Part shown: piece by piece, positions 18,729 through 41,631 of the stretch
Layout: each line of letters starts with the position of its first letter
Position numbering within the stretch: the stretch's first letter is position 1
From: Hydrogenobacter sp.
Lineage (GTDB): Bacteria; Aquificota; Aquificia; Aquificales; Aquificaceae
Length of the DNA: 64,000 nt
Direction of reading: 5' to 3'
Assembly: GCA_028276405.1 (NCBI GenBank)
Contig: JAPYWJ010000002.1
Location: forward strand, 1-64,000
Notes under the pieces: generated by a model
Database searches by the model: none
What the model saw: only the letters and a program-made list of their open reading frames with translations
What the model was told of the DNA's origin: nothing
Made by a program: the position numbers and the translations under genes

Positions 18729-19019
18729 ATGGAATGGATACAAGCTCTTACAGTAATAGCCAGTCTCACGGGAGTTTTGGGCATAGTGGCTAACCTTTTG
18801 AGCAAGCGCATAGAAGACACAAACAGGCGCATTGAAGACACAAACAAACGCATAGAAGACACAAACAAGCGTATTGAAGACACAAACAAGCGTATTGAAG
18901 ACACAAACAGGCGCATAGATGACCTAAGGGAAGACATGAGGGAAATAAGACAGGAGTTAAGAGAGATAAGACAGCTTCTATACAAAGTTTTTGAGGTACC
19001 TCACAAGGAGGACAAGTAA
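18729..19019 (+). CDS. small membrane-anchored coiled-coil protein, copy 2, with heptad repeats
   Basis: A 96-residue paralogue of its neighbours. The hydrophobic anchor (1-24) is followed by five perfect heptads of the type RIEDTN(K/R) encoded by a 21-bp tandem repeat, then RIDDLREDMREIRQELREIRQLLYKVFEVPHKEDK-like C-terminus. The extra heptads explain why it is 24 residues longer than copy 1. Copy number of the repeat could vary by slippage, changing rod length by about 1 nm per heptad. Function unknown. It starts and stops flush with its neighbours. Confidence 0.75.
   Translation: MEWIQALTVIASLTGVLGIVANLLSKRIEDTNRRIEDTNKRIEDTNKRIEDTNKRIEDTNRRIDDLREDMREIRQELREIRQLLYKVFEVPHKEDK
18807..18911 (+). 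repeat. five-copy 21-bp tandem repeat encoding a coiled-coil heptad
   Basis: Five units of CGY ATW GAA GAC ACA AAC ARR in frame. Units differ only at silent or Lys/Arg third-position sites, so the protein repeat is exact while the DNA has begun to diverge. Confidence 0.9.
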
Positions 19020-20592: not shown

Positions 20593-21036
20593 ATGAGACA
20601 GCTCTATCAAGCAACGAGCAGGTCCACAAGACTTGCAGGCTCAAAGGGTTTTACCCTGATTGAGCTACTCATCGTCATAGCCATCATAGCCATACTGGCA
20701 TCCCTGGCAATACCTCAGTACCTAAAGTACCAAAGGAAAGCCAAGGTAAGCTCCTACGCGGAACCCATAGCCAGAGGTTGTATGCTGGACATAGTGGCCT
20801 TCTGCACTGAAAACCCTGGTGCCTCGGTAACAACCGCAAGCTTAGCTAACTGCTCCCTTACTACTGTTAGCACTGCTGGAGGACCAGTTACTCTGAGTGC
20901 TAACGGTGGAACTTGCCAATCTGATGGTCAAGCGGACACCAACGCTTCTGCTACCGCTACCCTTTCTGGCGTGACTGACTACACTGCAGTTTGCAACTAC
21001 AGCAACCAGAGCATCAAGTGTACTATACAGGGTTAA
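20593..21036 (+). CDS. pilA: major type IV-like prepilin
   Basis: A 147-residue prepilin. A 19-residue leader ends in Gly at the cleavage site, then [22 protein letters not shown] with Glu at +5, the hallmark of type IV pilins. The head domain carries six cysteines (C-x7-C near 62-70, two central, C-x8-C near the end) and a middle rich in Ser, Thr, Ala and Gly (from [15 protein letters not shown] to NASATATLS) that would suit O-glycosylation. AAGGAGG before the ATG at 20593 fixes the start; the frame upstream is not pilin-like. A terminator-like hairpin follows, so it is probably expressed above the genes behind it. Confidence 0.9.
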
Positions 21037-21048
21037 TCTAAGCTGAGC

Positions 21049-21070
21049 GCCCCCTTGCCGGGGGGCTTTT
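21049..21070 (+). terminator. hairpin between the two pilin genes, terminator or attenuator
   Basis: GCCCCC (21049-21054), loop TTGCCG, GGGGGC (21061-21066), then TTTT. The run of G in the 3' arm lies about seven bases before the ATG at 21074 and is the only Shine-Dalgarno-like sequence for the second pilin, so the hairpin may limit both transcription and translation. Confidence 0.65.
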
Positions 21071-21073
21071 GCC

Positions 21074-21469
21074 ATGAAAAAAGGCTTTACTCTTGTAGAG
21101 CTTCTGATGGTTATAGCTCTTTTGGTTATACTGGCTTCTATGGCTCTCCCTTCTTATCTTATGTATCGCGACAAATCCAAGGTGAGCAACTTTGCGCTTT
21201 CTATAGCTTCAGCGTGTGCCAAAGATGCCATGGCAGATTGTGTGTCAAGGTTTGTGGATGCACCAACTGTTTACAACCTAAGTGCTCTTCCTAACTGTTC
21301 AAGGGTCAACACCGCTATGGGTAATGTTGAGGTTTTGCTTGATGGAAGCTACACATGCACGCCAAGTGGTATAGCAAGTGGTACTGTAAAAGGCATGCTT
21401 GCAGGAATAAACAACTACACCGCTGTGTGTGAGTTTTTGGAAAACAGCCTGAGGTGTAGCGTTAAGTGA
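21074..21469 (+). CDS. second prepilin-like protein
   Basis: A 131-residue pilin paralogue with a very short leader (MKKG) and FTLVELLMVIALLVILASMALPSYLMYR. It shares the six-cysteine pattern of the first pilin, including C-x7-C and the C-terminal C-x8-C, but is poorer in Thr and Ser. It may be a minor pilin. The stop codon overlaps the GTG of the GT-C gene by four bases, tying pilin and glycosylation genes into one transcript. Confidence 0.88.
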   Translation: MKKGFTLVELLMVIALLVILASMALPSYLMYRDKSKVSNFALSIASACAKDAMADCVSRFVDAPTVYNLSALPNCSRVNTAMGNVEVLLDGSYTCTPSGIASGTVKGMLAGINNYTAVCEFLENSLRCSVK

Positions 21470-23370
21470 TATACCTCCTTCTTTCTCTTTTTGCCTTCCT
21501 CTACATCTTTTCTGCCAGCAAGGTTATAAACACGGGTGATGCAGGAGAGTTTGCGGTAGGGGCTATAACCTTAGGTATTGCACATCCTTCTGGCTATCCT
21601 CTGTACATGGAAGTTTTAAAGCTTTTCAGCTTTTTACCCTTAGGGAGCATGCCCTTCAGAATGGTTTTAGTATCTGTGGTGTTTTCTTTACTGTCTCTTT
21701 ACATGCTCTATAAACTTACCTACACTCTTACGAAAAACCCTTATGTTTCCCTTTTTCCAGTAGCTATACTTGGAGTTTCTTATTCCTTCTTTGGTCAATC
21801 CGTAGTAATAAAGTTCTATACTCTAAACCTTTTTATTATCTCCCTTTTGCTATATTTTGGACTGAAAGTCTTACTTGAAGGTTATGAAAGAAAGATGCAG
21901 TTTCTTGTTAGCTTTCTGCTTGGTCTTTCCCTTGCCAACCACCATACCGCCATCATGATGACCTTACCTCTACTGTATGCTTCTTCCTTTTATATGAGGC
22001 AGGTCCTAAGGAACTTACCCTTGAGCTTAGTCTTTTTTGTAATGGGCTTTTTGGTAAACCTTCACATGCTCATAAGAGGAAATAGAGTTTTTGCCCCCAA
22101 CCCCGTTTATGACCTGAAAAGCTTTGTGGAGATTTTTTTGAGAAAGCCTTACAATGAAGGTTCATCTCCTGAGGTAGCAAAGGGCGTGTTTACAGGTCTG
22201 AGCGGATACTATTATGCCGCAAAGAACCTGCTTATAATACTGGACAACAACTTTCCTTTATACGCTTTTGCGCTCTTCCTTTTGGGTGTTTTTTGGACTT
22301 TTAAGTTTTCCAAAAAACTTGGTGTGTATATGGCAATTTTCTTCATAACTTACTCCCTTATCCTTGCAAAAATGACCTTTTCTTTCCCTGTTGTTAAAGC
22401 GGAAGGCTGGTACATAGGGGCGCATCAGTACTTTTTGCCTGCGCTTTTTGGGTTTGCTCTTTTTTGCGGACTTGGTTTTTACTTACTCTTAGACCTCCTT
22501 AAAAAGACAGAACTGTTAAAGGTTGTGGTGCCTGTCTCTGTATCTGTATACGCTCTCACGGGAGCTTTTGAAAGGCTAATAGACCAAAACTTCAACGATA
22601 ACTACATAGCTTACTCCATTTCAAAAAGTATACTTTCCTCTTTGCCTGTGGGTAGCCTATATTTAACTTACGGAGATAACCACACCTTCGGATCTTGGTA
22701 TTTCAAGTATGTAGCACGCTACAGACAGGACATATGCTCTAACGATTACTTATCTCCAGACAGCAACATACTTATACCCAGAGGTTGCTACCCGCAAGAC
22801 CTTTACAAAAATAGCCATGTTTTTTCAGAGTTTTTCAAAGGGAACCTTGCAGATTTTGCAAACCATCTTAGACTTTACAGTATTGTCTATATAAAGCCTC
22901 CTAACCCTCTGGCACAGTTTTTCAAAAACGAGTTTTGGGTTTTTTCCTTTGCACTACTACCAAAGAACATACAGATACCAAAAGACTTCTGGTCAAAAAA
23001 GCTTCTCAAATATCAAGACCTTGAAACCCTGAGTATGATGGACTGCGCGGGTTATATTACTGATGATAGGTTTTCCACAACGCTATGCAACTATTCTCTG
23101 CCTATGTTTGCTTATATGATATCCCTTATAGAACCAAAAAAGGCGTCTGGGAATATAAGCTACGATGTTAGATACATGGGAAAAACCTTCAGGGTTTCCA
23201 TAAACGCGCCCCCAGATAAAAGCCATCCGGGAGAGAGCTTTAGCATAAAAGTTGGCACAGAAAACCAAAACCTTATAGAGCTTTACAACAAAGTAATGGA
23301 AAATAACAAGCTGGAAAAGTTTAAGTACTATCCCTACACAGAGGAATACATAAACAGAGGAAAAAGATGA
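21466..23370 (+). CDS. DUF2723-family membrane glycosyltransferase (GT117, TMEM260-like)
   Basis: A 634-residue polytopic membrane protein. The N-terminal INTGDAGEFAVGAITLGIAHPSG (residues 21-43) is the signature of DUF2723/PF11028, with acidic residues at the end of the first helix as in GT-C enzymes that use lipid-linked sugars. About nine helices follow, then a soluble domain from about 390 to the end. The human relative TMEM260 is an O-mannosyltransferase. Start is GTG, overlapping the second pilin gene by four bases. Position directly behind pilins and ahead of a polyprenyl-phosphate sugar synthase-like gene supports pilin glycosylation; this is inference. Confidence 0.75.
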   Translation: MIYLLLSLFAFLYIFSASKVINTGDAGEFAVGAITLGIAHPSGYPLYMEVLKLFSFLPLGSMPFRMVLVSVVFSLLSLYMLYKLTYTLTKNPYVSLFPVAILGVSYSFFGQSVVIKFYTLNLFIISLLLYFGLKVLLEGYERKMQFLVSFLLGLSLANHHTAIMMTLPLLYASSFYMRQVLRNLPLSLVFFVMGFLVNLHMLIRGNRVFAPNPVYDLKSFVEIFLRKPYNEGSSPEVAKGVFTGLSGYYYAAKNLLIILDNNFPLYAFALFLLGVFWTFKFSKKLGVYMAIFFITYSLILAKMTFSFPVVKAEGWYIGAHQYFLPALFGFALFCGLGFYLLLDLLKKTELLKVVVPVSVSVYALTGAFERLIDQNFNDNYIAYSISKSILSSLPVGSLYLTYGDNHTFGSWYFKYVARYRQDICSNDYLSPDSNILIPRGCYPQDLYKNSHVFSEFFKGNLADFANHLRLYSIVYIKPPNPLAQFFKNEFWVFSFALLPKNIQIPKDFWSKKLLKYQDLETLSMMDCAGYITDDRFSTTLCNYSLPMFAYMISLIEPKKASGNISYDVRYMGKTFRVSINAPPDKSHPGESFSIKVGTENQNLIELYNKVMENNKLEKFKYYPYTEEYINRGKR

Positions 23371-23954
23371 GGTGGGTTTTGGTTTTTCTGGCAGTGTTGG
23401 CAAGCTGTGTTTATGTTTTGACCAATAACCAAAAACGCCTCATAAGAGAAGGAGACCTACTCTTTGCTATGGGAAAGCCCCTTATGGCTATTTCCATGTA
23501 CGAAAGAGCCCTTTTAAACTATGTTCCCTTTAGCCCTTACAACGAAAAAGCTGTAGAAAAGATTAAAAAAACTTGTCAAGCGTTGACGGAAAAAGAGCAT
23601 AAACTCTTCTGTCAGGAAACCCTCAGGTCCGCTCTTTACCAACTTAGGGGTTTTTATGTGCCCTATTGGGAAACCATCACCAAGACAGAAAAAGACATGC
23701 TAATCACTAAGCTTGAGCTTTACATACAGCACAACAACCCACCGCCAGAGGAGTATCAGCAGATATTCAAAGAGTTAAAAGCTATGACAGACTATGACCC
23801 TTACCCTTCTGTGTTTTGGAGTTTTCTGGTGGTGTTTTCTCTTGCAGGATGGATAGGCTCTGCTGTTTTTTTAACACTAAAGGCTAATAAAAAAGCGTTT
23901 CTTTCCTTTTTAGTATTTCTCTTTTTATGGCTCTTGGGACTTTACCTTGCATGA
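23367..23954 (+). CDS. membrane protein with TPR-like middle, unknown function
   Basis: A 195-residue protein not matched to a named family. An N-terminal helix (VLVFLAVLASCVYVL) is followed by a charged helical region of about 110 residues whose start (LIREGDLLFAMGKPLMAISMYERALL) resembles a TPR hairpin, then two closely spaced C-terminal helices (about 150-192). It overlaps the GT-C gene and the following GT4 gene by four bases each, so it is probably a co-translated partner in the glycan pathway, for instance a scaffold of the transferase. Confidence 0.65.
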   Translation: MRWVLVFLAVLASCVYVLTNNQKRLIREGDLLFAMGKPLMAISMYERALLNYVPFSPYNEKAVEKIKKTCQALTEKEHKLFCQETLRSALYQLRGFYVPYWETITKTEKDMLITKLELYIQHNNPPPEEYQQIFKELKAMTDYDPYPSVFWSFLVVFSLAGWIGSAVFLTLKANKKAFLSFLVFLFLWLLGLYLA

Positions 23955-25003
23955 AAGTGCTTATCCTTTGCAGGAGGTGTATTAAACATCCAGAAAGAGG
24001 GGGTGCAGAAATATACACTATGGAACTTGCCAAGGCTGTGGTGGAAAAGGGTGGAAAGGTGGAGTGGTTTGCATCAAAACCTTCTGGTTTAAAGGAAGAA
24101 GAAGTCATAGAAGGCGTAAAGTTTATAAGGAAAGGTAATGAGCTTACCACACACTTTTACGGACTTCTTTACGCCTTAAGAAAGCCCAAAGACTGGATCC
24201 TTTTGGATGAGTTCAACGGTATAGGTTATTTTACCTTCTTTATGGACAACTCTCTTCTGTTGATCCATCAACTTTATCAGGAGTTCTGGACTGCACAGAT
24301 GGGTTTTGGAGGCTATCCTTTTAAGCTAATAGAAAAACAAATTCTGAAGCTCTACAAAAGAAAAGAAGTAATAACCGTATCATCCTCTACACAGGAGGAC
24401 CTAAAAAGCTTAGGTTTTGAAAAAGTGCGTATAATTTACAACGGACTGGACATAGAACCTTTAGAAGATACACCACAAAAAGCCAAAAACCTCACGCTTG
24501 TGTATTTAGGAAGACTAAAGAAAACAAAGAATCCAGAAGATGCTATAAAAGCTTTTATTACTGTAAAGGAAAAGGTAAAAGACGCGGAGCTCTTTGTAGC
24601 GGGTGATGGTCCTTTGAGAAGCCATCTTGAAAGTAAGTACAAAGGTGTAAAGGGACTGTATTTCACGGGCTACTTAACAGAAAAGTATCAACTTCTTAAA
24701 ACTTCTCACATACTTTTAGTCCCCAGTCTTAGAGAAGGGTGGGGACAGGTGGTTTTGCAAGCTAACGCTGTGGGTACCCCTGCCGTTGGTTATAAAGTTA
24801 AAGGGCTAAAGGATAGTATAAAAGATGGGGAAACGGGTTTTCTGGTGGAGGATGTAAATAAGATGGCACAAAAAGTGCTTCTTTTGTGGGAAAATGAGGA
24901 ACTATACCAAAAGCTTTCAAGGAACGCTCTATCTTGGGCAAGGAACTTTTCTTGGGAAAAAACAAGAAAAGAGTTCATTGAGTTTTTGGAAGGCAGAACA
25001 TGA
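23951..25003 (+). CDS. glycosyltransferase family 4
   Basis: A 350-residue GT-B enzyme. The N-terminal domain has RGGAEIYTMELAKAV (about 16-30); the C-terminal donor domain has LVYLGRLKKTKNPEDAI, FVAGDGPLR and the acidic EGWGQVVLQANAVGTPAVG, where the Glu residues contact the nucleotide sugar. The start at 23951 overlaps the previous stop as ATGA. Donor and acceptor are unknown; an N-acetyl-sugar or mannose transferase to a lipid-linked glycan fits the neighbourhood. Confidence 0.85.
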   Translation: MKVLILCRRCIKHPERGGAEIYTMELAKAVVEKGGKVEWFASKPSGLKEEEVIEGVKFIRKGNELTTHFYGLLYALRKPKDWILLDEFNGIGYFTFFMDNSLLLIHQLYQEFWTAQMGFGGYPFKLIEKQILKLYKRKEVITVSSSTQEDLKSLGFEKVRIIYNGLDIEPLEDTPQKAKNLTLVYLGRLKKTKNPEDAIKAFITVKEKVKDAELFVAGDGPLRSHLESKYKGVKGLYFTGYLTEKYQLLKTSHILLVPSLREGWGQVVLQANAVGTPAVGYKVKGLKDSIKDGETGFLVEDVNKMAQKVLLLWENEELYQKLSRNALSWARNFSWEKTRKEFIEFLEGRT

Positions 25004-25707
25004 AAGGTCTGATAGTATTACCCACATACAACGAAGCAGAAAACATAGATAAAGTTATTTCTAAAATAATACAGCACTCTTCTCTTGACATACTTGTGGT
25101 GGATGATAACTCTTCCGATGGGACTGCACAAAAGGTACAGGAATGGATGAAGAAAGAAAAAAGAGTAAACCTTCTGAAAAGACCTTCAAAGCTTGGCTTG
25201 GGAACCGCTTATGTAGACGGCTTTAGATGGGGATTAGAAAGGGATTATCAGGTGTTTTTTGAAATGGATGCAGACATGTCTCATGATCCCTCTGACATAC
25301 CAAGATTTTTAAAAAAGGTGGAAGAGGGGTGCGACCTTGTGGTGGGTTCAAGATACACAAAAGGCACCATAAGCGTGGTAGGTTGGGACTTCAAGAGGCT
25401 TCTCCTTTCCAAGTTTGCCAACTTTTACGCAACTACCATACTTAATCTAAAACCGTTTACAGACATTACTAGTGGATACAGATGCTATAAAAGAGAGGTT
25501 TTAGAAAAAATAGACCTCAGCGGTACAAAGTCCAACGGCTATGCTTTTCAGATAGAGACCTTTTATAAGGCTCATAAGCTTGGCTTTAGGGTGTGTGAAA
25601 TTCCTATAATATTTTACGAAAGAAACAGCGGTGCTTCAAAGATGAGTAAAAAAATAGCCTTAGAGGCGGCTATAATGGTTTGGAGGCTTAGGTGTGCAAA
25701 AACATAA
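25000..25707 (+). CDS. polyprenyl-phosphate sugar synthase, DPM1-like GT2
   Basis: A 235-residue GT2 enzyme. LPTYNEAENI (6-15), VVDDNSSDGT (33-42), a DADMSHDP (about 90-97) metal site and GSRYTKG follow the dolichyl-phosphate mannose synthase pattern closely, including SGYRCYKRE. No C-terminal membrane helices are present, as in the soluble catalytic forms. It would transfer mannose or glucose from a nucleotide sugar to polyprenyl phosphate, giving the donor for a GT-C enzyme such as the DUF2723 protein upstream. Overlaps its neighbours at both ends. Confidence 0.82.
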   Translation: MKGLIVLPTYNEAENIDKVISKIIQHSSLDILVVDDNSSDGTAQKVQEWMKKEKRVNLLKRPSKLGLGTAYVDGFRWGLERDYQVFFEMDADMSHDPSDIPRFLKKVEEGCDLVVGSRYTKGTISVVGWDFKRLLLSKFANFYATTILNLKPFTDITSGYRCYKREVLEKIDLSGTKSNGYAFQIETFYKAHKLGFRVCEIPIIFYERNSGASKMSKKIALEAAIMVWRLRCAKT

Positions 25708-26422
25708 AGGGTATCAGGAACACCTTGCAAGCATAAGACACATAGGACTAAGACCCTTTTTCAGAAGACTTTTGGAAACCCACACCATCACGGAAAAGCT
25801 ATACTACAGATTGACCAACATATCTGTAAAAAAGTTAGGCAATATACCCAACATAAAAATAGCTTCCAACATTCTTGATGTGGGTTGTGGAACTGGAGAG
25901 ATTCTCTATTACATAAAGAAGTTTATAAACCCACACGCAGAGCTGTTTGGGGTTGACCTTGAAAAGAACCCACTGCTTAAAGACTATGTGAAGTTTTTTA
26001 GGTGTGATTTAGAAGATGAGTCTTTACCCTTTGAAGAAGAAAGCTTTGATGTGGTTATTTCCACCTTTGTGCTGGAACACCTAAGAAATCCTCAAAAGCT
26101 CTTCTCCGAGAGCTTTAGAGTGCTAAAGAAGAAGGGATACTTCTACTGTACTACCGACTATTACACTTCCCTTTTCTGCCCAGAAGGTTATAACTTCTAC
26201 TCAGACCCAACTCACATAAGACCTTGGACCAAAAAGAGCCTAAAAACCCTTGCCAAGATGTGCGGTTTTGAGGTCTGTCAAGTAAAGGTTTTAAGATGGT
26301 GGGAGTACTTACCTTTTCTACCCATCTATCCTCTGCTCCATCTTCTCACGCCCAACGATTTTTCCTTTATACCCTACGAAATACTCGGAAGAACAGTTTA
26401 TGTGATCGCAAAAAAACCATGA
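25694..26422 (+). CDS. class I SAM-dependent methyltransferase
   Basis: A 242-residue protein with AdoMet motif I ILDVGCGTGEILYY (about 59-72), an acidic residue GVDLEKN after the second strand, and STFVLEHLRNPQKLF (about 118-132) as in Methyltransf_11 proteins. The C-terminal half carries two hydrophobic stretches (EYLPFLPIYPLLHLL). Start is GTG with 14 bases of overlap with the previous gene. Sugar or lipid methylation within the glycan pathway is the simplest guess. Confidence 0.8.
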   Translation: MQKHKGYQEHLASIRHIGLRPFFRRLLETHTITEKLYYRLTNISVKKLGNIPNIKIASNILDVGCGTGEILYYIKKFINPHAELFGVDLEKNPLLKDYVKFFRCDLEDESLPFEEESFDVVISTFVLEHLRNPQKLFSESFRVLKKKGYFYCTTDYYTSLFCPEGYNFYSDPTHIRPWTKKSLKTLAKMCGFEVCQVKVLRWWEYLPFLPIYPLLHLLTPNDFSFIPYEILGRTVYVIAKKP

Positions 26423-27477
26423 GAATAATTCACTTCATCTACGACCATATAAACAATCCTTGGGTAGGTGGTGGTGGAGCGGTAAGGGTTTTTGAAGTAT
26501 ACAGAAGGCTTGCAAAAAAAGGCTACAGCATAACCGTTGTGAGCGGAAAGTATCCAAAAGCTCAGGAAGGCGAGGCACAGGGTATAAGGTTTTTGTTTTT
26601 AGGCTCTGATAAAAACTACATTCTCAGCACCTTCTCTTACGCTTTGATAGCTAAAGGTTTTTTGGACAAACATTATAAGGATTATGACCTCATAGTAGAA
26701 GATTTTGCACCTTGGAACCCCATATGCGCATACAGGTATCAAGATAAAAAGCCCGTAGTTCTCCAACTCCAGAATTACGAAGGAATAAACACCTTGAAAA
26801 AGTATGCACTCCTTGGCTTACCTTTTCTCTTAGTGGAAAGGTCCTACCCCAAAAGATACAACCATGTAATTTCCCTCTCTGAATTTCTCAACAGAGTTTA
26901 TAACATCAAAGCTAAGGTGATACCCAGCGGTGTTGATAAAGTTGAGGAGAATTTTGAGTTGGGAGACTATGTGGCTTATCTTGGTAGGCTTGATGTAGCT
27001 CAAAAAGGTTTGGACCTGTTAGCTAAAGCCATAAAGGAGTTAAAACACATAAAATTTAAGATAGCTGGGGATGGAAAAGACAGAGAGAAGTTCTTAAAAA
27101 TGATAGATGGTTGTAAAAATGTAGAGTATTTGGGAAGACTAACCGGAGAAAAGAAGTTTAATTTCATCAAAGGTTCAAAATTTTTAGTCATGCCTTCAAG
27201 GTACGAGGGACAAGGAATAGTGGCAATGGAATCCGCATCTTGTGGAAAACCCATAATAGTTAGCGATATTCCTGTATTTTCTTATGTGGTGCAAGCGGGG
27301 TTTGGTGTGAGCTTTCGCAAAGACGACCCGAAAGACCTTGCGGAAAAGATAAAGTTTTTATACGAGAGGGAGGATATGGTCTTTGAGATGGGTAAGAAAG
27401 GTATAGAGTTTGCCAAAAACTACACATGGGATAGAATAGCTTACCTCTACGAAGAGTATATAAAGAGCTTGTTATGA
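26419..27477 (+). CDS. glycosyltransferase family 4
   Basis: A 352-residue GT-B transferase: GGGGAVRVFEVYRRLAKKGY (about 18-37) at the acceptor domain, IPSGVD at the hinge, YLGRLDVAQKGLDLL, and the donor-site PSRYEGQGIVAMESASCGKP. The start at 26419 was chosen by the ATGA overlap with the methyltransferase; the longer frame from 26296 is that gene's shadow. It is more distant from the GT4 at 23951 than a simple duplicate would be. Sugar specificity unknown. Confidence 0.85.
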   Translation: MRIIHFIYDHINNPWVGGGGAVRVFEVYRRLAKKGYSITVVSGKYPKAQEGEAQGIRFLFLGSDKNYILSTFSYALIAKGFLDKHYKDYDLIVEDFAPWNPICAYRYQDKKPVVLQLQNYEGINTLKKYALLGLPFLLVERSYPKRYNHVISLSEFLNRVYNIKAKVIPSGVDKVEENFELGDYVAYLGRLDVAQKGLDLLAKAIKELKHIKFKIAGDGKDREKFLKMIDGCKNVEYLGRLTGEKKFNFIKGSKFLVMPSRYEGQGIVAMESASCGKPIIVSDIPVFSYVVQAGFGVSFRKDDPKDLAEKIKFLYEREDMVFEMGKKGIEFAKNYTWDRIAYLYEEYIKSLL

Positions 27478-28637
27478 TAAGAGACCTATCTTTTGTTGGT
27501 GTAGCCTTTCTGTATGCAAACGCTGTAGGCTACATCTTTCACTTTTTTGTGAGCAGACACTTGGGAACCTATGGATACGGTGAGTTTATGGTTATCTACT
27601 CTTTAATGTTGAGCGTGGGGAACTTTATAAACTTGTTTTCTAACTCTTTGGTAAAAGAGCTTCTAAAAAGTGGGCAAGGAATGAAAAGTGAGCTTTCTTA
27701 TCTGAGATGCTTGGGTTTGCTCTTGGGATTTTTTATTCTTATGCTTGGAATAGCATTTGCTGAGCCTGTAAAGGATTTTTTGAGGATATCAAAAGCTCAG
27801 TACTTTTGGATAGTAGCTGGTATCTGGTTTATTCAGCTTTTGCTGGTGATAGAACGAGCCTACCTTCAGTCTTTAGAGAGGTTTAGCTTACTTGCTTTTT
27901 CCGTATTTATTGAGCAAAGCGTGAAACTTTTAGCTGTGTTTTTCCTTATAAACTTGGGTGTGTTTGGGGTCTTGTTGTCTTTTTTTGTGAGTATGTTTTC
28001 TACTTTCGGGCTAGTTTTAAGTATTAATAGAGCCTTTTTTGTTGGGCTAAAAAGAGTAAGTATTTTAAGTCTTGTTAAATCTTCTCTGTTTACCTCACCC
28101 GTAGGTTTTTTTGTATACGCAGACGACCTCTTTATAAGGAGGATCTTTGACCCACATACCGCTGGGCTGTATGCTTCCGTTTCTTTGGTAGGTAAAGTAT
28201 TTATATGGCTTATTATAACGCTCATGAGTGTGCTGTTTCCTAGGTTCGTAATGTATGCACAAAAAAGGGAAAAAGTAGGAAGTCTTCTAAGAAGAGCGCT
28301 CTTTTGGTGTTTTTTTGTGTTTATTGTTTTTGAAGTTTCCTTAATTTTTGTAGGTAAATACCTTTTTGTGTTACTTTTCTCTGAAAAATTCCTTACCGCC
28401 TTTACCTATTTACCCTTCTATCTTTCTGCAGTGCTTTTTTTAACCTTTACATTGATCTTTATATACCTTCTTACCGCTTTTGGTAAGCATATTTGGTTAC
28501 CTTACCTTCATCTTTTTCTTTATTACGGTGGATTTTTATTGCTTGATTTTAAAAATGTCTGGTGGTACATTTTTTACATATTCTCTATAAATCTGTGTTT
28601 TTTGCCTCTCTATGCTCTTTCTATACGCAATCGGTAA
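27474..28637 (+). CDS. polysaccharide/oligosaccharide flippase (Wzx-like, MOP family)
   Basis: A 387-residue membrane protein with about eleven or twelve helices and few charges. The opening (RDLSFVGVAFLYANAVGYIFHFFVSRHLGTYGYGEF) is typical of polysaccharide transporters, with the RHLG-YGEF motif near 30-42. It likely turns a lipid-linked glycan across the membrane. It is the last gene of the run that starts at the pilins, and its 3' end overlaps the convergent membrane-protein gene by 28 bases. Confidence 0.82.
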   Translation: MIRDLSFVGVAFLYANAVGYIFHFFVSRHLGTYGYGEFMVIYSLMLSVGNFINLFSNSLVKELLKSGQGMKSELSYLRCLGLLLGFFILMLGIAFAEPVKDFLRISKAQYFWIVAGIWFIQLLLVIERAYLQSLERFSLLAFSVFIEQSVKLLAVFFLINLGVFGVLLSFFVSMFSTFGLVLSINRAFFVGLKRVSILSLVKSSLFTSPVGFFVYADDLFIRRIFDPHTAGLYASVSLVGKVFIWLIITLMSVLFPRFVMYAQKREKVGSLLRRALFWCFFVFIVFEVSLIFVGKYLFVLLFSEKFLTAFTYLPFYLSAVLFLTFTLIFIYLLTAFGKHIWLPYLHLFLYYGGFLLLDFKNVWWYIFYIFSINLCFLPLYALSIRNR

Positions 28638-29257
28638 TGGGAAGTTAGCACTCCAGAAAGACAGCCACCCACAAAGAAGGCAAAGAGGAATAAACCAAAA
28701 AGCTTTGAAAAACCACCAAAAGGTGAGCTGATAAGCCACATACCTGCCAAAGGCAGAAGCATAAAGGAAAGAAACACTTTTGTATCTTTGTTGCTTATCT
28801 TTATCTTAAAAAGGTATCCCACAGGGGTTGTTTCAAGATTTTGGACAAATCCTGCATACAGAAGAAGGGCAATAAAAAGCTTAAAGAGAGAAAGGAAAGA
28901 CCACACAAGCACTTGAGATGCGAAAAACCCAGATGCTATACCTTCCAAGTTTAAACTTTTAGAAAACCATTCAGAGAGTGAAAAAACAAAAAAGGTATCC
29001 AACAAAGCTGTTGCAGTAAAACCTAAGGGAGATACGCTTTCTATATGGACTTCTTCTTGGTAGTAGCAAAGCTCATCAAGAACATTTTTCCATTTTTTGT
29101 ATGCTTCTCTTTCCATTTCAAAAACAAAAGGCTTACCCACATTTATAGACCTGAAAAATTCTGATATACTTACTCCTAAACTTTCTAAGGCGTCTACGAG
29201 CTTTTCTATACTTTCTTCCTTCACAGAAATTATCTTTATCCTTACTTTGTCGCTCAT
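28610..29257 (-). CDS. membrane protein of unknown function at the end of the pil operon
   Basis: A 215-residue protein. Residues 1-75 form a soluble alpha/beta region (RIKIISVKEESIEKLVDALE, KPFVFEMEREAYKKWKNVLDEL). Residues about 80-210 hold four hydrophobic segments; LETTPVGYLFKIKI resembles the GxTxGKxxxGxxV part of RDD-type membrane proteins, but this is weak. The ATG at 29257 overlaps the pilQ stop by four bases, so I took it over the longer frame. It may help secretin assembly or have an unrelated role. Confidence 0.6.
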   Translation of the reverse strand: MSDKVRIKIISVKEESIEKLVDALESLGVSISEFFRSINVGKPFVFEMEREAYKKWKNVLDELCYYQEEVHIESVSPLGFTATALLDTFFVFSLSEWFSKSLNLEGIASGFFASQVLVWSFLSLFKLFIALLLYAGFVQNLETTPVGYLFKIKISNKDTKVFLSFMLLPLAGMWLISSPFGGFSKLFGLFLFAFFVGGCLSGVLTSHYRLRIERA

Positions 29258-31023
29258 TCTCTTATAAGTACTGGAGTTAGGAATATGAGAAGCTCCGACT
29301 GTGTGTTTTGTAATCTTTCCTGTCCAAAAACCCACTTGAGTATGGGCACCCTCACAAGACCAGGAATCCCTTCGTTGGTTCTGGACTCTTGGTTGTCTAT
29401 TATACCTCCTATAACTAAGGTGTCTCCATCGTTGACTACTACTTTTGTGGAAGCTTCTTTGGTGTTTATAGCTGGTCCCTGAGGAGTCTGTTGTCCGGGT
29501 GTGTCCCTTTTAAGGTTTATGTCAAGGAGGATTCTACCGTCTGGTGATACAACTGGCGTGACATCAAGCTGAAGTACCACATCTTTAAACTGTATGTTTG
29601 CAGCCTGACCACCTCCTGCAATTACCGTTGTTTGATAGGGTATCTGTACTCCCTGTTTTATGGTTGCTTTTTGAGCGTTTATGGTTACCACTGTGGGTTT
29701 GGCTATGTTCTTAGCCAAGGATACGCGTTCAAGAGCGGATAGTCTTAGGTTTAGAGCGTTTAAAATTCCCTTCTGGAAGGCAAAGGTGAATATACCACCC
29801 GGTGTAGGAGAAAGCCCTGGCGTGTAGTATATGGGAGAGCGCACCCCTGTGTCTGGTGGTACATATACATTACCCAACGGTGGTGGCGTGCCTATGTTAG
29901 CTCCCTGTCCTGCTCCACCGCTCATAAACTGAGGCACTCTTGCCTGAGAGAGCAAAACATTCCAATTTATACCCAGCTCCCTTAAGGCTTCATCTCTTAT
30001 CTCAATGATCCTAGCTTCTATCTTCACTTGAACAGGTGAGTCGCTTATGTAGTCTTTAAATCTTTCTCTTATCTTCTCTATGACTTCTGGATAGTCCGTA
30101 ATCATCACAGCGTTGAACTCTTTTAGTATGGGCGAAGGAGGAGTTTGCTGTTGAGTTTGCTGTTGGGCTTGTGTTACTTGTGGCTGTTGTATGGGTGTTT
30201 GTACCTTTATGGATCCACCGCTTAATACCGCACCGGCTTCTGACCTGAGTGGCTCTATCATCTTTATGAATTCGTCTGGGCTTATGTACCTAAGGTAGAA
30301 GATCTTGGTTATGGGTCTTCTTTCTGTGGGTGTCATGGTGAGAAAGTTTTTAAGCACTTCCTGATACTTTTCCATCTGTTTGGGACTGTCTGTTATCACC
30401 AAAGCAGAAAAGCTCTGCACTTTCGTGATTAGAGTATCTGGCTTTTTATAGGCACTTAAAAGCCTTTCCACTTCGTCTAAGGATATGTTTTTAAGATAAA
30501 AGACTCTTGTGATGCGCTCTTCTGGAGGTGCTACTTTTTCCACTATCTTGGCGTAATCTTTAAGTATTGGTTCAAGCTTTTTTATGCTACGCTCTTCGTC
30601 TCTTATGTAGACTGTCTTGAGGGTCTTGTCTATGACTATTTCCGCAGAAGGACTTACTCTTGGCTTTAAAAACTTGACAAACTCCTCTATTTGCCTGTCA
30701 TCAAGCCCAGAAAGGCTCATGCTTATCTCTCCAGCTTTGGTTATCCTATAGACCTTCCTGTCTATGGGTACCGCTATAAGTCCGTACTCTTTGAGTATTA
30801 TGTTCATAGCTTCTCCAACCGGCACTGGTTTGTATATGGCTATGCTAACGGTTTTGGATGCTTCTTGCGACACCTGAGGGTCAAAGATGACATTCATATC
30901 AGCAACCTGAGACAGGGCTTTTAGTACGGTTTCCAGCTTCACATTTTCAAACTTCATCTCCTTTATGGTTTGTGCTAAAGACACGCTTAGCAGGAGCAGT
31001 ACAGACATAAGCACCCTTTTCAT
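29254..31023 (-). CDS. pilQ: type IV pilus secretin PilQ
   Basis: A 589-residue outer-membrane secretin. Signal peptide 1-17; a secretin/TonB N-terminal domain at about 20-95; three N-domains (VFYLKNISLDEVERLL, IFYLRYISPDEFIKMI and flanks); a Gln-rich linker near 280-300; then the secretin core from about 330 with VKIEARIIEIRDEAL and the closing DTLVIGGIIDNQ...LGW-type region (VRVPILKWVFG). The linker splits an N1-like repeat. It ends an operon with pilM, N, O and a small gene in place of pilP. It forms the gated pore through which the pilus leaves the cell. Confidence 0.92.
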   Translation of the reverse strand: MKRVLMSVLLLLSVSLAQTIKEMKFENVKLETVLKALSQVADMNVIFDPQVSQEASKTVSIAIYKPVPVGEAMNIILKEYGLIAVPIDRKVYRITKAGEISMSLSGLDDRQIEEFVKFLKPRVSPSAEIVIDKTLKTVYIRDEERSIKKLEPILKDYAKIVEKVAPPEERITRVFYLKNISLDEVERLLSAYKKPDTLITKVQSFSALVITDSPKQMEKYQEVLKNFLTMTPTERRPITKIFYLRYISPDEFIKMIEPLRSEAGAVLSGGSIKVQTPIQQPQVTQAQQQTQQQTPPSPILKEFNAVMITDYPEVIEKIRERFKDYISDSPVQVKIEARIIEIRDEALRELGINWNVLLSQARVPQFMSGGAGQGANIGTPPPLGNVYVPPDTGVRSPIYYTPGLSPTPGGIFTFAFQKGILNALNLRLSALERVSLAKNIAKPTVVTINAQKATIKQGVQIPYQTTVIAGGGQAANIQFKDVVLQLDVTPVVSPDGRILLDINLKRDTPGQQTPQGPAINTKEASTKVVVNDGDTLVIGGIIDNQESRTNEGIPGLVRVPILKWVFGQERLQNTQSELLIFLTPVLIRE

Positions 31024-39446: not shown

Positions 39447-40112
39447 TTACAGCATTTCAACGCTTTTTACGAACTTATCTTTTATGAGCATCTCCATGAG
39501 TGTGTCTTTCTCTCTTTCGTTAAGTTCGCTCTGCAGAGTTATTTCAAATCCTTCTTTTAGCTTTGATACTCTACGCACCTCAAAGTTTCTCAAGAAACCT
39601 CTTAAATAATTTACAGGGTCCTCTACACCTTCAACGGTTAACGCTATTATATAACTTGTACCCATCCTTATGAACTCCTTTTCTATCCTGCTCATGGTAG
39701 AAAGGGTAAGAAGTAATAACAAAAGAGCAAAAAGAGACATAGTATACATACCCATACCTATGGAAAGTCCTATGCCCGCCGTAGTCCAAAGACTGGCAGC
39801 AGTAGTGAGCCCTTTTATGGATACACCTAACCTTATTATAGCGCCTGCACCCAAAAAGCCTATGCCTGTTATTACCTGTGATGCTATTCTGGATGGATCG
39901 GCTGACATCCCTTGAGCATAAGCGTAAACCGTGTGAATGGAGAGCAGGCTCATAAGAGCAGAACCAAGAGCTAAAACTGAATGAGTTCTAAAGCCCGCAG
40001 GCTGTCTTCTCTTTTCTCTCTCCAAGCCTATCAGAGCACCCGCAAGAAAAGCCAATGTTATCCTTAAAAAACCTTCCCACATGGAGAAAGGAAGATGTTC
40101 AGAAAAGCTCAT
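39447..40112 (-). CDS. MgtC/SapB family membrane protein
   Basis: A 221-residue protein: four or five helices in the first 145 residues with the family motif LIGLEREKRRQPAGFRTHSVLALGSAL (23-49, landmarks Glu27, Arg28, His43), and a C-terminal soluble ACT-like domain (about 150-221). MgtC proteins are linked to survival at low Mg2+ and to modulation of ATP synthase or transport; the role in an autotroph is unknown. Overlaps the ABC ATPase gene by four bases. Confidence 0.85.
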   Translation of the reverse strand: MSFSEHLPFSMWEGFLRITLAFLAGALIGLEREKRRQPAGFRTHSVLALGSALMSLLSIHTVYAYAQGMSADPSRIASQVITGIGFLGAGAIIRLGVSIKGLTTAASLWTTAGIGLSIGMGMYTMSLFALLLLLLTLSTMSRIEKEFIRMGTSYIIALTVEGVEDPVNYLRGFLRNFEVRRVSKLKEGFEITLQSELNEREKDTLMEMLIKDKFVKSVEML

Positions 40113-40876
40113 AACATCATTTTAGGCTCAGGTAGTGCTTTTGTAAAGGCATACTCTTCCATAACTTCATGGGGTCTTCCTATCTTATGCACTGTGTGGT
40201 TTTCTATCCACATGACCCTGTCACATACCTTCTTTATGTCTTCTGCAGAATGAGACACGAATATGGTGGTAACACCTCTCTGCTTAAATTCTTCCATCTT
40301 TTTTAAACACTTCTTTTGAAAGCTCAGATCCCCAACCGCTAACACTTCGTCTATTAGGAGTATGTCTGGGTCTAAGTGTGCCACTACTGAAAAGGCAAGC
40401 CTTGCAACCATACCTGACGAGTAAGTCCTCAAAGGCTGGTCTATAAAATCCCAAAGCTCGGAAAATTCTATTATGCTGTCCATCTTCTTCATAACCTCTC
40501 TTCTTGTCATGCCCATAAGAACCCCATTGAGAACTATATTTTCCCTACCTGTAAGCTCTTTGTGAAATCCAGCACCAAGCTCTAAAAGAGGACTTACCCT
40601 ACCTCTTACTATAACCCTTCCTTTTGTAGGCTTTAGAACTCCTGCTATTAAGCCAAGTATGGTGCTTTTGCCTGCGCCGTTTTTACCTACTATACCAAAG
40701 GTCTCACCCCTGTAAACTTCAAAAGATACATCTCTAAGGGCTTCAAAGCTCTTGCTTTTTAGCTCCTTTAAAGAAGAAGGTAGTGTAAAGATAAACTTTT
40801 TTAATCCTGCGGTTATGTGGGTATAGAAAGGATAAGACTTGCTTACCTTGTCAAAGATAACCGCCGCTTGACTCAT
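40109..40876 (-). CDS. ABC transporter ATPase for polysaccharide export (Wzt/TagH-like)
   Basis: A 255-residue nucleotide-binding protein. Walker A GKNGAGKST (about 67-75), the signature YSSGMVARLAFSV (about 157-169) and Walker B ILLIDEVLAVGD (about 178-189) are intact. The VSKSYPFY opening and the FEALRDVSFEV line are typical of O-antigen or teichoic-acid exporters. It lacks the extra C-terminal carbohydrate-binding domain of long Wzt proteins, so it should act like KpsT/TagH. The start is ATG at 40876 in a TGATG junction with the permease. Confidence 0.88.
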   Translation of the reverse strand: MSQAAVIFDKVSKSYPFYTHITAGLKKFIFTLPSSLKELKSKSFEALRDVSFEVYRGETFGIVGKNGAGKSTILGLIAGVLKPTKGRVIVRGRVSPLLELGAGFHKELTGRENIVLNGVLMGMTRREVMKKMDSIIEFSELWDFIDQPLRTYSSGMVARLAFSVVAHLDPDILLIDEVLAVGDLSFQKKCLKKMEEFKQRGVTTIFVSHSAEDIKKVCDRVMWIENHTVHKIGRPHEVMEEYAFTKALPEPKMML

Positions 40877-41631
40877 CAGAGAACCTCTGCAAACCTCCAA
40901 GATAGCTTCCTAAAAAGGCTATAGCCTGCAAGAAAGATGGTCAGAGAGTACAAAAATCCAAAAAGTAGGAGGTTAGGCTCAAAGGACTGTCCCAAAAACA
41001 GTCTTCTCCAGCAGATGATCAGAGGAGCCATGGGATTAAGGTAAAGTATGTATTTGTAATTTTCCGGAAGCATGTCTTCGCCATAAACCACGGGAGTCAT
41101 GTAAAAAAGAAGTGTGAGAAAAATGCTCACAAGCCTGTCAAGATCGCGAAAAAAGAGATGTAAAGATGAAACCGCAAGAGATATGCCGTAACTAAGCAGG
41201 AATTGGGGTACAAATACTAAAACTAAACCCAAAGGTAACCACCAACTTGGACTTCTGCCGTAAATGTATACAAAAATAAGTATCACGGGCACAGATAAAA
41301 GAAAATGCATGGAGTGGTTTATCACACAAGACAGGGGTATGAGCTCTCTTGGAAAGTTGAGCTTTTTTATGAGGGAAGCATTATCCATAAGTACAAAGAG
41401 AGAGGAGCTTACTGAGTTAGAAAACCACTGCCATGGAAACAGGGCTGTTATGAGAAAGAGGGGATAATCTTCTATTTTTACTTTCATAAAAACCTTGAAG
41501 GCCATGTAGAACATCAAAGCGAAAGCTAAAGGATGCATAATGGACCAGAAATACCCAAAAACACTGTTTTTGTACCTTACCTTTATTTCCTTCTGGGTCA
41601 ATACATAAACCAAGTCAAAAAAATACCGCAT
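40876..41631 (-). CDS. ABC-2 permease for polysaccharide export (Wzm-like)
   Basis: A 251-residue membrane protein of the ABC-2 type with about six helices. The N-terminal [24 protein letters not shown] (about 12-35) is the cytoplasmic interface typical of TagG/Wzm/KpsM. With the ATPase that follows it should export a lipid-linked glycan. It faces queF across 20 bases; TATAAT on the minus strand lies ten bases before the ATG. Confidence 0.88.

Follow-up and report, generated by a model that had tools for sequence, protein, structure and literature searches.

A predicted type IV pilin glycosylation cluster with a TMEM260-like GT-C enzyme in Hydrogenobacter

In Pseudomonas aeruginosa, the pilA-tfpO and pilA-tfpW cassettes each place a pilin gene ahead of its own glycosyltransferase gene, and tfpW is accompanied by a gene for an accessory membrane protein (PMC11841053, PMC12369383). 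Such pilin-oligosaccharyltransferase (OTase) cassettes carry a terminator after pilA (PMC11841053). Three-component periplasmic glycosylation uses GtrB, the GtrA flippase, and a GT-C enzyme (PMC11127046), while in the Agl pathway of Haloferax, AglJ starts a chain on dolichyl monophosphate and AglR/Agl15 serves as the flippase (PMC3871713). TMEM260 is an O-mannosyltransferase that uses Dol-P-Man (PMC11292533). A literature search on bacterial DUF2723/PF11028/GT117/TMEM260 proteins and on Aquificales pilin glycosylation found no paper on a bacterial DUF2723 protein, and no earlier report of a TMEM260-type enzyme linked to pili was found in the literature searched.

The gene cluster described here is located in a 64,000-nucleotide stretch of Hydrogenobacter sp. 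DNA (the window) and shares features with each of these systems (Table 1). As in the P. aeruginosa cassettes, a transferase gene follows pilin genes, an accessory membrane protein is encoded (as with tfpW), a terminator-like element follows the first pilin gene, and arabinose genes are present in one relative (L029). However, the transferase is a PF11028 protein, and the genes for its donor machinery (DPM, GT4s, and flippase) share its operon; TfpW, a GT-C pilin arabinosyltransferase, is set apart here by its description rather than by its sequence. The combination of a polyprenyl-phosphate-sugar synthase, a flippase, and a GT-C transferase recalls the three-component system, but here a pilin is the predicted acceptor, a Wzx-like protein stands in for GtrA as the flippase, and extra GT4s are present. 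As in Haloferax, a DPM1-like GT2 would start a polyprenyl-monophosphate chain that other glycosyltransferases extend and a flippase exports, and the best NCBIfam models for the GT2 and GT4b are Agl proteins. In contrast to that pathway, the transferase is a DUF2723 protein instead of AglB/STT3, and O-linkage is predicted. PglL/TfpO and STT3/PglB enzymes hold the equivalent place beside pilins in relatives, yet they belong to families different from DUF2723 and neither is found in this genome.

Table 1. Features of the pilin and glycosyltransferase cluster, in positions of the window
Feature	Position	Strand	Support and remarks
PilA1, putative major type IV pilin	20593..21036	+	PF07963 E 4e-8; 147 aa; strong RBS aaaggagg upstream
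Terminator-like hairpin	21045..21070	+	CCCCC-TTGCC-GGGGG followed by CTTTT; downstream of major pilin, ahead of remaining operon
PilA2, second type IV pilin	21074..21469	+	PF07963 E 2e-6; 131 aa
DUF2723/TMEM260-like GT-C glycosyltransferase	21466..23370	+	PF11028 E 4e-18; 634 aa; GTG start
MP195, three-helix membrane protein	23367..23954	+	No family assigned in Pfam and NCBIfam searches
GT4a glycosyltransferase, cytoplasmic	23951..25003	+	PF00534 E 3e-31
GT2, DPM1/AglJ-like polyprenyl-phosphate sugar synthase	25000..25707	+	PF00535 E 1e-27; no TM
SAM-dependent methyltransferase (MT)	25694..26422	+	PF08241 E 2e-20
GT4b glycosyltransferase, cytoplasmic	26419..27477	+	PF00534 E 3e-26
Wzx/Polysacc_synt-like flippase	27474..28637	+	PF01943 in 7/11 members of its alignment

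All nine genes, from the two pilins to the flippase, have the identities and order given in the original prediction. The overlaps, described there as mostly 4 bases long, measure 4 bases at six junctions (pilin 2/DUF2723, DUF2723/MP195, MP195/GT4a, GT4a/GT2, MT/GT4b, and GT4b/Wzx) and 14 bases at GT2/MT. The statement that the genes follow one another without gaps holds from pilin 2 onward but fails between the two pilins, because a 37-base spacer carrying the terminator-like hairpin is found there.

The DUF2723 identity is well founded, with a PF11028 profile match of 66 bits against a curated cut-off of 24.2 (68 bits in the genome search). In a profile search of the PDB, the enzyme alignment matches the TMEM260 structure 9rql with an E value of 4.8e-44. 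The two GT-C modules are homologous over ~430 residues, and the GD...H-P-x-GYP motif of the first extracytoplasmic loop is kept; G24-D25, which provides the acidic residue of this loop, is invariant in two alignments. Foldseek neighbours of the predicted enzyme model are the GT-C proteins PglB, ArnT, AftB, and Pmt4. Unlike TMEM260, the window enzyme is bacterial and pilin-linked, and no TPR match was found in its chain, where the aligned region ends at profile position 442 and the C-terminal part of the model is of low confidence; the adjoining gene encodes a TPR-like protein of its own. A TPR module within the chain marks animal TMEM260, not the Pfam family PF11028. The DUF2723 protein has no match to Wzy_C (PF04932) or to STT3/PglB (PF02516/PF21436), and its genome yielded no match to PF02516, nor to PF04932 at E 1e-3. 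A PglL or STT3 protein elsewhere in the genome was rejected as the true enzyme, since neither family was found there. The enzyme is indeed distinct from PglL/TfpO, as had been proposed, and its sequence matches lead us to predict that it is a pilin O-glycosyltransferase.

MP195 has one N-terminal transmembrane segment (TM), a helical periplasmic body, and two C-terminal TMs (TMs at 2-34, 149-172, and 175-194), and its AF2 model is entirely helical (pLDDT 93.6). The top Foldseek matches are mostly TPR, none of them at E<=0.001, and Pfam TPR_1 is matched weakly (0.047) in 2 of 13 family members. The model suggests a TPR-like body. Among relatives, MP195 distances track DUF2723 distances (r=0.92), and MP195 is absent from every Aquificales relative having pilins but no DUF2723. 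We predict that MP195 is a constant, co-evolving, and previously undescribed partner of the DUF2723 enzyme. The original prediction gave this protein no role.

Conservation was surveyed in 61 Aquificales genomes. Each of the 14 DUF2723 genes over the cut-off directly follows a pilin gene; weak PF11028 matches below the cut-off (L015-L017; neighbourhoods L031-L033) are distant from pilins and are left out of the counts. Orthologues of MP195 and of the GT2 (DPM) occur in an identical set of 13 genomes and no others. This set includes two genomes (G011 and G018) that have the core with an unlinked DPM and with MT, GT4b, and Wzx not adjoining. Those three genes are missing beside the core at L028, L030, and L036, and one genome (G053) lacks both DUF2723 and the pilin. 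Nearly every MP195-bearing locus has a GT4 or GT9 gene after MP195, with GT9 replacing GT4a at seven loci (L018, L028, L036, L039, L041, L046, and L114). Conservation of the pilin-DUF2723-DPM order in other Aquificales had been set in advance as a check; the order recurs there, and the view that it is unique to this genome is rejected.

In a DUF2723-only scan of other genomes, 8 of the 9 scorable loci are also directly after a pilin gene, and in a Nitrospirota sample 16 of 30 DUF2723 loci lie beside one. About half of the Nitrospirota loci do not adjoin a pilin, so DUF2723 proteins in general cannot be called pilin-specific. The core is also found in Nitrospirota, Methylomirabilota, and Desulfobacterales MAGs. 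In Thermodesulfovibrio sp. N1 the set is divided, one contig holding pilin-DUF2723-MP195 and a second holding GT4a-DPM together with GT4b-Wzx; GT4a-DPM and GT4b-Wzx each remain intact even when separated from the pilin. The arrangement is beyond chance, its order being kept in two families of the order Aquificales and its core across phyla.

At the equivalent pilin locus, OTase classes swap. Four orthologous pilin pairs that lack DUF2723 are followed by an STT3 enzyme, a fifth pair is preceded by STT3, and one further pilin locus carries a PglL-type enzyme. Such swapping did not figure in the original prediction. No clear enrichment difference was found for N-X-S/T sequons in the pilins adjoining STT3. 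The 14th DUF2723 genome (L029) has no DPM, and genes for DPPR synthase, DprE1, and DprE2 (polyprenyl-P-arabinose) lie beside its pilin-DUF2723 pair; a plasmid search for TfpW-like relatives via this locus returned one DUF2723 protein only.

PilA1, whose orthologues are present in Aquificales, has an 18-residue leader, a GFTLIE motif, and a head that is rich in Ser and Thr, as originally noted (26%, with 18% in the PilA2 head). Pilin-1 heads contain ~24% Ser/Thr with a DUF2723 or other OTase-type neighbour versus ~15% without one, in a small sample in which kinship is ignored. PilA1 is the probable acceptor of the glycan and PilA2 a possible second acceptor. In L018-L027, a stem-loop with differing stem sequences is found in the position of the inter-pilin hairpin. 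The fold energy of the hairpin by itself is not above that of shuffled sequences, and a consensus terminator scan did not pick it up; its recurring position is the sole basis on which we consider it a likely attenuator.

The GT2 profile matches the dolichol-phosphate-mannose synthase (DPMS) of Pyrococcus furiosus (5mlz, E 2e-37), and its VVDD and DAD motifs are conserved, with D35-D36 and D90-x-D92 invariant. GDP-mannose synthesis is encoded in the genome (TIGR01479, 409 bits). A GT2 fold of this kind also serves glucose and N-acetylhexosamine. The GT2, proposed as a supplier of lipid-linked mannose, is DPMS-like, but mannose is not singled out, given that the best NCBIfam models (AglJ and PpgS) both fall below the cut-off and that one relative has arabinose genes. 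Mannose is a plausible sugar. For GT4b, the best NCBIfam model is Agl16, also below the cut-off. The methyltransferase is retained in most but not all relatives, and that it acts on the glycan is a guess. The flippase call was at first likewise a guess, because the window protein has no Pfam match; it gains from the matches of its aligned family to PF01943/PF13440-type models (best 1e-14), whereas a PDB profile search with the same alignment found none. By analogy with haloarchaea, the GT4s and the flippase point to an oligosaccharide on a monophosphate carrier rather than to a single mannose. Because TMEM260 transfers one mannose only, such a donor would be a departure. This oligosaccharide reading was not part of the original prediction.

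A dedicated, lipid-carrier-dependent pilin glycosylation cassette, as originally proposed, is supported by gene identities, order, and conservation, all read directly from the DNA, from which we infer its function and steps. In our view the cluster is likely to be devoted to the glycosylation of type IV pilins, as a system of a “three-component plus extension” kind. The GT2, like DPM1, GtrB, and AglJ, would take a single sugar from its nucleotide-linked form and load it onto polyprenyl phosphate. GT4a and GT4b would then extend it with further sugars at the cytoplasmic face, one of which the methyltransferase perhaps methylates, and the Wzx-like protein would export the lipid-monophosphate glycan. 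The DUF2723 enzyme would transfer this glycan onto Ser/Thr residues of the PilA1 head, and perhaps of the PilA2 head, while the pilins are still unassembled in the membrane. Beside it, MP195 may aid pilin recognition or act as a complex scaffold through its TPR-like periplasmic body, and the hairpin after the first pilin may keep enzyme levels low relative to the major pilin. G011 and G018, with their unlinked DPM, fit this scheme less well, as do the Nitrospirota DUF2723 loci away from pilins.

Other explanations were weighed. A fairly unlikely one is that the pilin receives a single mannose from polyprenyl-P-mannose, as with TMEM260, and that the GT4s, methyltransferase, and flippase make a separate surface glycan and merely share the operon. 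The activity of TMEM260, the DPMS-like GT2, the encoded GDP-mannose synthesis, and the loci with a core but no adjoining MT, GT4b, or Wzx would all suit this explanation. It accords poorly with the GT4 or GT9 gene after MP195, with the pairing of GT4a-DPM and of GT4b-Wzx away from pilins, and with the failure of NCBIfam to single out a mannose enzyme. An acceptor elsewhere in the periplasm or on the surface, with the pilin as one among many targets of general O-glycosylation, is unlikely. More than one target is possible for enzymes of the PglL and TMEM260 families, and a haloarchaeal-like glycan pathway would suit many acceptors, but pilin adjacency in all scored Aquificales cases and the joint absence in G053 suggest a dedicated role.

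We regard as very unlikely that the cluster produces exopolysaccharide or modifies O-antigen and that its pilin neighbourhood is incidental. The GT4s, together with the Wzx-like flippase and the ABC exporter at 40109-41631, are what surface polysaccharide loci typically contain, and many Nitrospirota DUF2723 loci have no pilin linkage. Against this stand the invariable pilin adjacency in Aquificales, the overlap of the DUF2723 start with the pilin 2 stop codon, conservation across phyla, the replacement of the cluster enzyme by known protein OTases (STT3 and PglL) at pilin loci, and a cluster without a polymerase or an initiating phosphoglycosyltransferase. Lastly, MP195 could be a TfpY/FimB-like pilus assembly accessory and not a glycosylation partner, which seems quite unlikely. 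Like TfpY (PMC11841053), it has three TMs, no enzyme domain, and a gene downstream of pilins. Yet this gene follows DUF2723 rather than a pilin, is absent where pilins occur without DUF2723, and diverges in step with DUF2723, and the all-helical AF2 model departs from the three N-terminal TM helices and mixed beta domain of TfpY.

Returning to the dedicated pilin glycosylation system, we tentatively propose, at somewhat less than an even chance, a bacterial two-subunit OTase of the TMEM260 type. A catalytic DUF2723 subunit, acting with MP195 as a TPR-like membrane subunit that would recognise the acceptor, would transfer a polyprenyl-monophosphate oligosaccharide to pilins; the donor, a DPM-made chain or arabinose, would be interchangeable. 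This would be a further pilin-OTase class, conserved in several phyla, beside PglL/TfpO, TfpW, and STT3.

Three unrelated types of OTase exchange at pilin loci inside a single order. If our interpretation is correct, an ancient branch of the TMEM260 family exists in bacteria; its acceptor, the pilin encoded alongside, is clear, its genetic context is simple, and it comes with a candidate subunit for recognition. The interpretation would also account for pilin glycosylation in several phyla, and would offer tractable thermophile systems for a family that is important in animal development.

The nine genes of the original prediction (20593–28637), in a 1.36-Mb Aquificaceae genome, proved on sequence and gene inspection to be real, contiguous, and all on the + strand. 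Neighboring genes overlap by 4 bases at six junctions and by 14 bases at one; the single gap, 37 bases between pilinA1 and pilinA2, holds a GC-rich hairpin with a short run of T. In Aquificales relatives L018–L027, the same inter-pilin place is taken by a hairpin whose sequence differs. Retention of position despite sequence change is expected of an attenuator, and the hairpin would fit one that allows an excess of major pilin. Regulation of this kind downstream of the major pilin gene has been described for accessory-gene cassettes of other bacteria (PMC11841053). Small ORFs resembling the heptad-repeat protein of the window (see table) lie upstream of pilins in congeners L025 and L026.

The 634-aa DUF2723 protein matches PF11028, and its gene's closest named relative is from a Hydrogenobacter MAG (77% identity). 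A profile built from 14 Aquificales members matches the solved TMEM260 protein 9rql (E 4.8e-44, profile positions 12–442), and the GD...H-P-x-GYP loop is kept in the alignment. The AF2 model reaches no more than moderate confidence (pLDDT 69); its best fold neighbors are the lipid-linked-sugar GT-C enzymes PglB, ArnT, AftB, Pmt4, and ALG12. The adjacent membrane protein, MP195 (195 aa), has no family match in Pfam or NCBIfam. Its confident model (pLDDT 93.6) comprises a TM helix, a helical body, and two TM helices, which suggests helices in the membrane and a periplasmic body. Its nearest folds are TPR proteins, none significant. Given that the TMEM260 polypeptide itself contains a TPR module presumed to bind acceptors (PMC11292533), we hypothesize that MP195 could be an acceptor-recognition subunit. 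DUF2723 distances correlate with those of MP195 (r = 0.92) more strongly than either does with those of DPM, the cluster's GT2 (0.71 and 0.80).

The predicted pilin-DUF2723-DPM order is conserved in other Aquificales. PF11028 scores above cut-off in 14 of 61 genomes, always with a pilin gene immediately before it. MP195 occurs in 13 of the 61, and the GT2 orthologue (E <= 1e-50) is present in exactly those 13; neither occurs in any other genome. Owing to shared ancestry, these do not count as 13 independent events. Presence of both varies within three genera (g13, g15, and g16). Because the GT2 is retained though unlinked in genomes G011 and G018, its association with MP195/DUF2723 appears functional and not merely positional. 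The 14th genome, G057, lacks both MP195 and the GT2 orthologue. In G053, which shares its genus with four DUF2723-positive genomes, neither a match to this pilin (E 1e-8) nor the cluster was found.

Searching GTDB genomes with the DUF2723 alignment also revealed the core in Thermodesulfovibrio, other Nitrospirota, one Methylomirabilis MAG, and one Desulfobacterales MAG. Of the nine loci whose upstream sequence could be scored, eight (all but L035) have a pilin upstream of DUF2723, and 8/11 of these genomes carry a DPM orthologue. Thermodesulfovibrio sp. N1 has all of the following, with pilin-DUF2723-MP195 on a different contig from GT4a-DPM and GT4b-Wzx; the frame split in its DUF2723 gene reflects either sequencing error or phase variation. 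Among 198 sampled Nitrospirota genomes, 27 carry PF11028 above cut-off. There, DUF2723 directly follows a pilin in 16 of 30 loci examined, so the family is not confined to pilins. Three of these loci have a GT2 of a different type directly after DUF2723 (one Pfam-checked), and several consist of pilin-DUF2723 only.

Coordinates and positions of features in the window and in related loci
Location	Strand	Source	Feature
18729-19019	+	window	small protein, heptad-like repeat (RIEDTNK)
28610-29335	-	window	241-aa membrane protein, no Pfam family, adjoins pilQ
40109-41631	-	window	Wzm/Wzt-like pair, ABC-2 type polysaccharide exporter, close to pilus assembly genes
L029:2800-11810		Hydrogenothermaceae (G057)	pilins, divergent DUF2723, DPPR synthase/DprE1/DprE2 homologues
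L042:9914-11810		Thermodesulfovibrio sp. N1	DUF2723 gene split across two frames, close to A-rich homopolymer runs
L108:1548-2204	-	Nitrospirota	MP195 homologue 4.8 kb from DUF2723, which is followed by GT2 of another type
L056, L057, L059, L060			STT3/PglB-type enzyme as gene after pilin pair
L062			STT3/PglB-type enzyme as gene before pilin pair

Most likely, the GT2 would charge polyprenyl phosphate, GT4a and GT4b would extend the lipid-linked glycan, the Wzx-like protein would export it, and DUF2723 would transfer it to pilin Ser/Thr residues. The GT2 profile matches the P. furiosus dolichol-phosphate-mannose synthase (2e-37); the flippase call derives from Polysacc_synt matches in other members of its family and not from the window protein itself. 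No initiating phosphoglycosyltransferase lies within the cluster, which fits a monophosphate carrier. The scheme resembles Haloferax, where assembly on such a carrier starts with an AglJ-like enzyme and relies on a flippase of the AglR/Agl15 type (PMC3871713), and the synthase-flippase-GT-C trios of O-antigen modification (PMC11127046). We infer glycan chain length, sugar identity, and methylation; mannose is possible because the genome encodes GDP-mannose synthesis and TMEM260 uses Dol-P-Man (PMC11292533). Ser/Thr content of the first-pilin head is higher with a transferase next door (p about 0.001, by a statistic that ignores kinship).

Relatives of the 241-aa protein are kept beside pilQ or the pilin pair (L054, L057, L058, L021, and L024–L026); it is possibly an undescribed pilus accessory protein.

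Pilin glycosylation cassettes are already known. The searchable (incomplete) literature yielded no report of one with a TMEM260-family enzyme and MP195, in a comparison that leaves out TfpW. The same pilin pair also occurs in relatives without DUF2723. Pilins adjoining STT3 there are predicted from gene order to be N-glycosylated or otherwise STT3-modified, and STT3 matches adjoin pilin matches, by coordinates, in three more genomes. Genus g6 (L050 and L051) has another pilin locus with a 585–588 aa Wzy_C protein, which in L050 also weakly matches PglL_A. No such transferase adjoins the pilins in L054, L055, L058, L061, L063, or L064. The G057 homologues (of decaprenyl-phosphate phosphoribosyltransferase, DprE1, and DprE2) match a route to polyprenyl-P-arabinofuranose that has been put forward for the arabinosylation of Pseudomonas pilin (PMC11127046), and the locus is predicted to be a pilin arabinosylation cassette outside Pseudomonas. 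GT9 replaces GT4a in L018 and L114 (by Pfam) and in L028, L036, L039, L041, and L046 (by sequence likeness). Variation of this kind among the sugar-adding genes is the pattern of a glycan cassette in which the pilin, the transferase, and the transferase's predicted partner stay constant.
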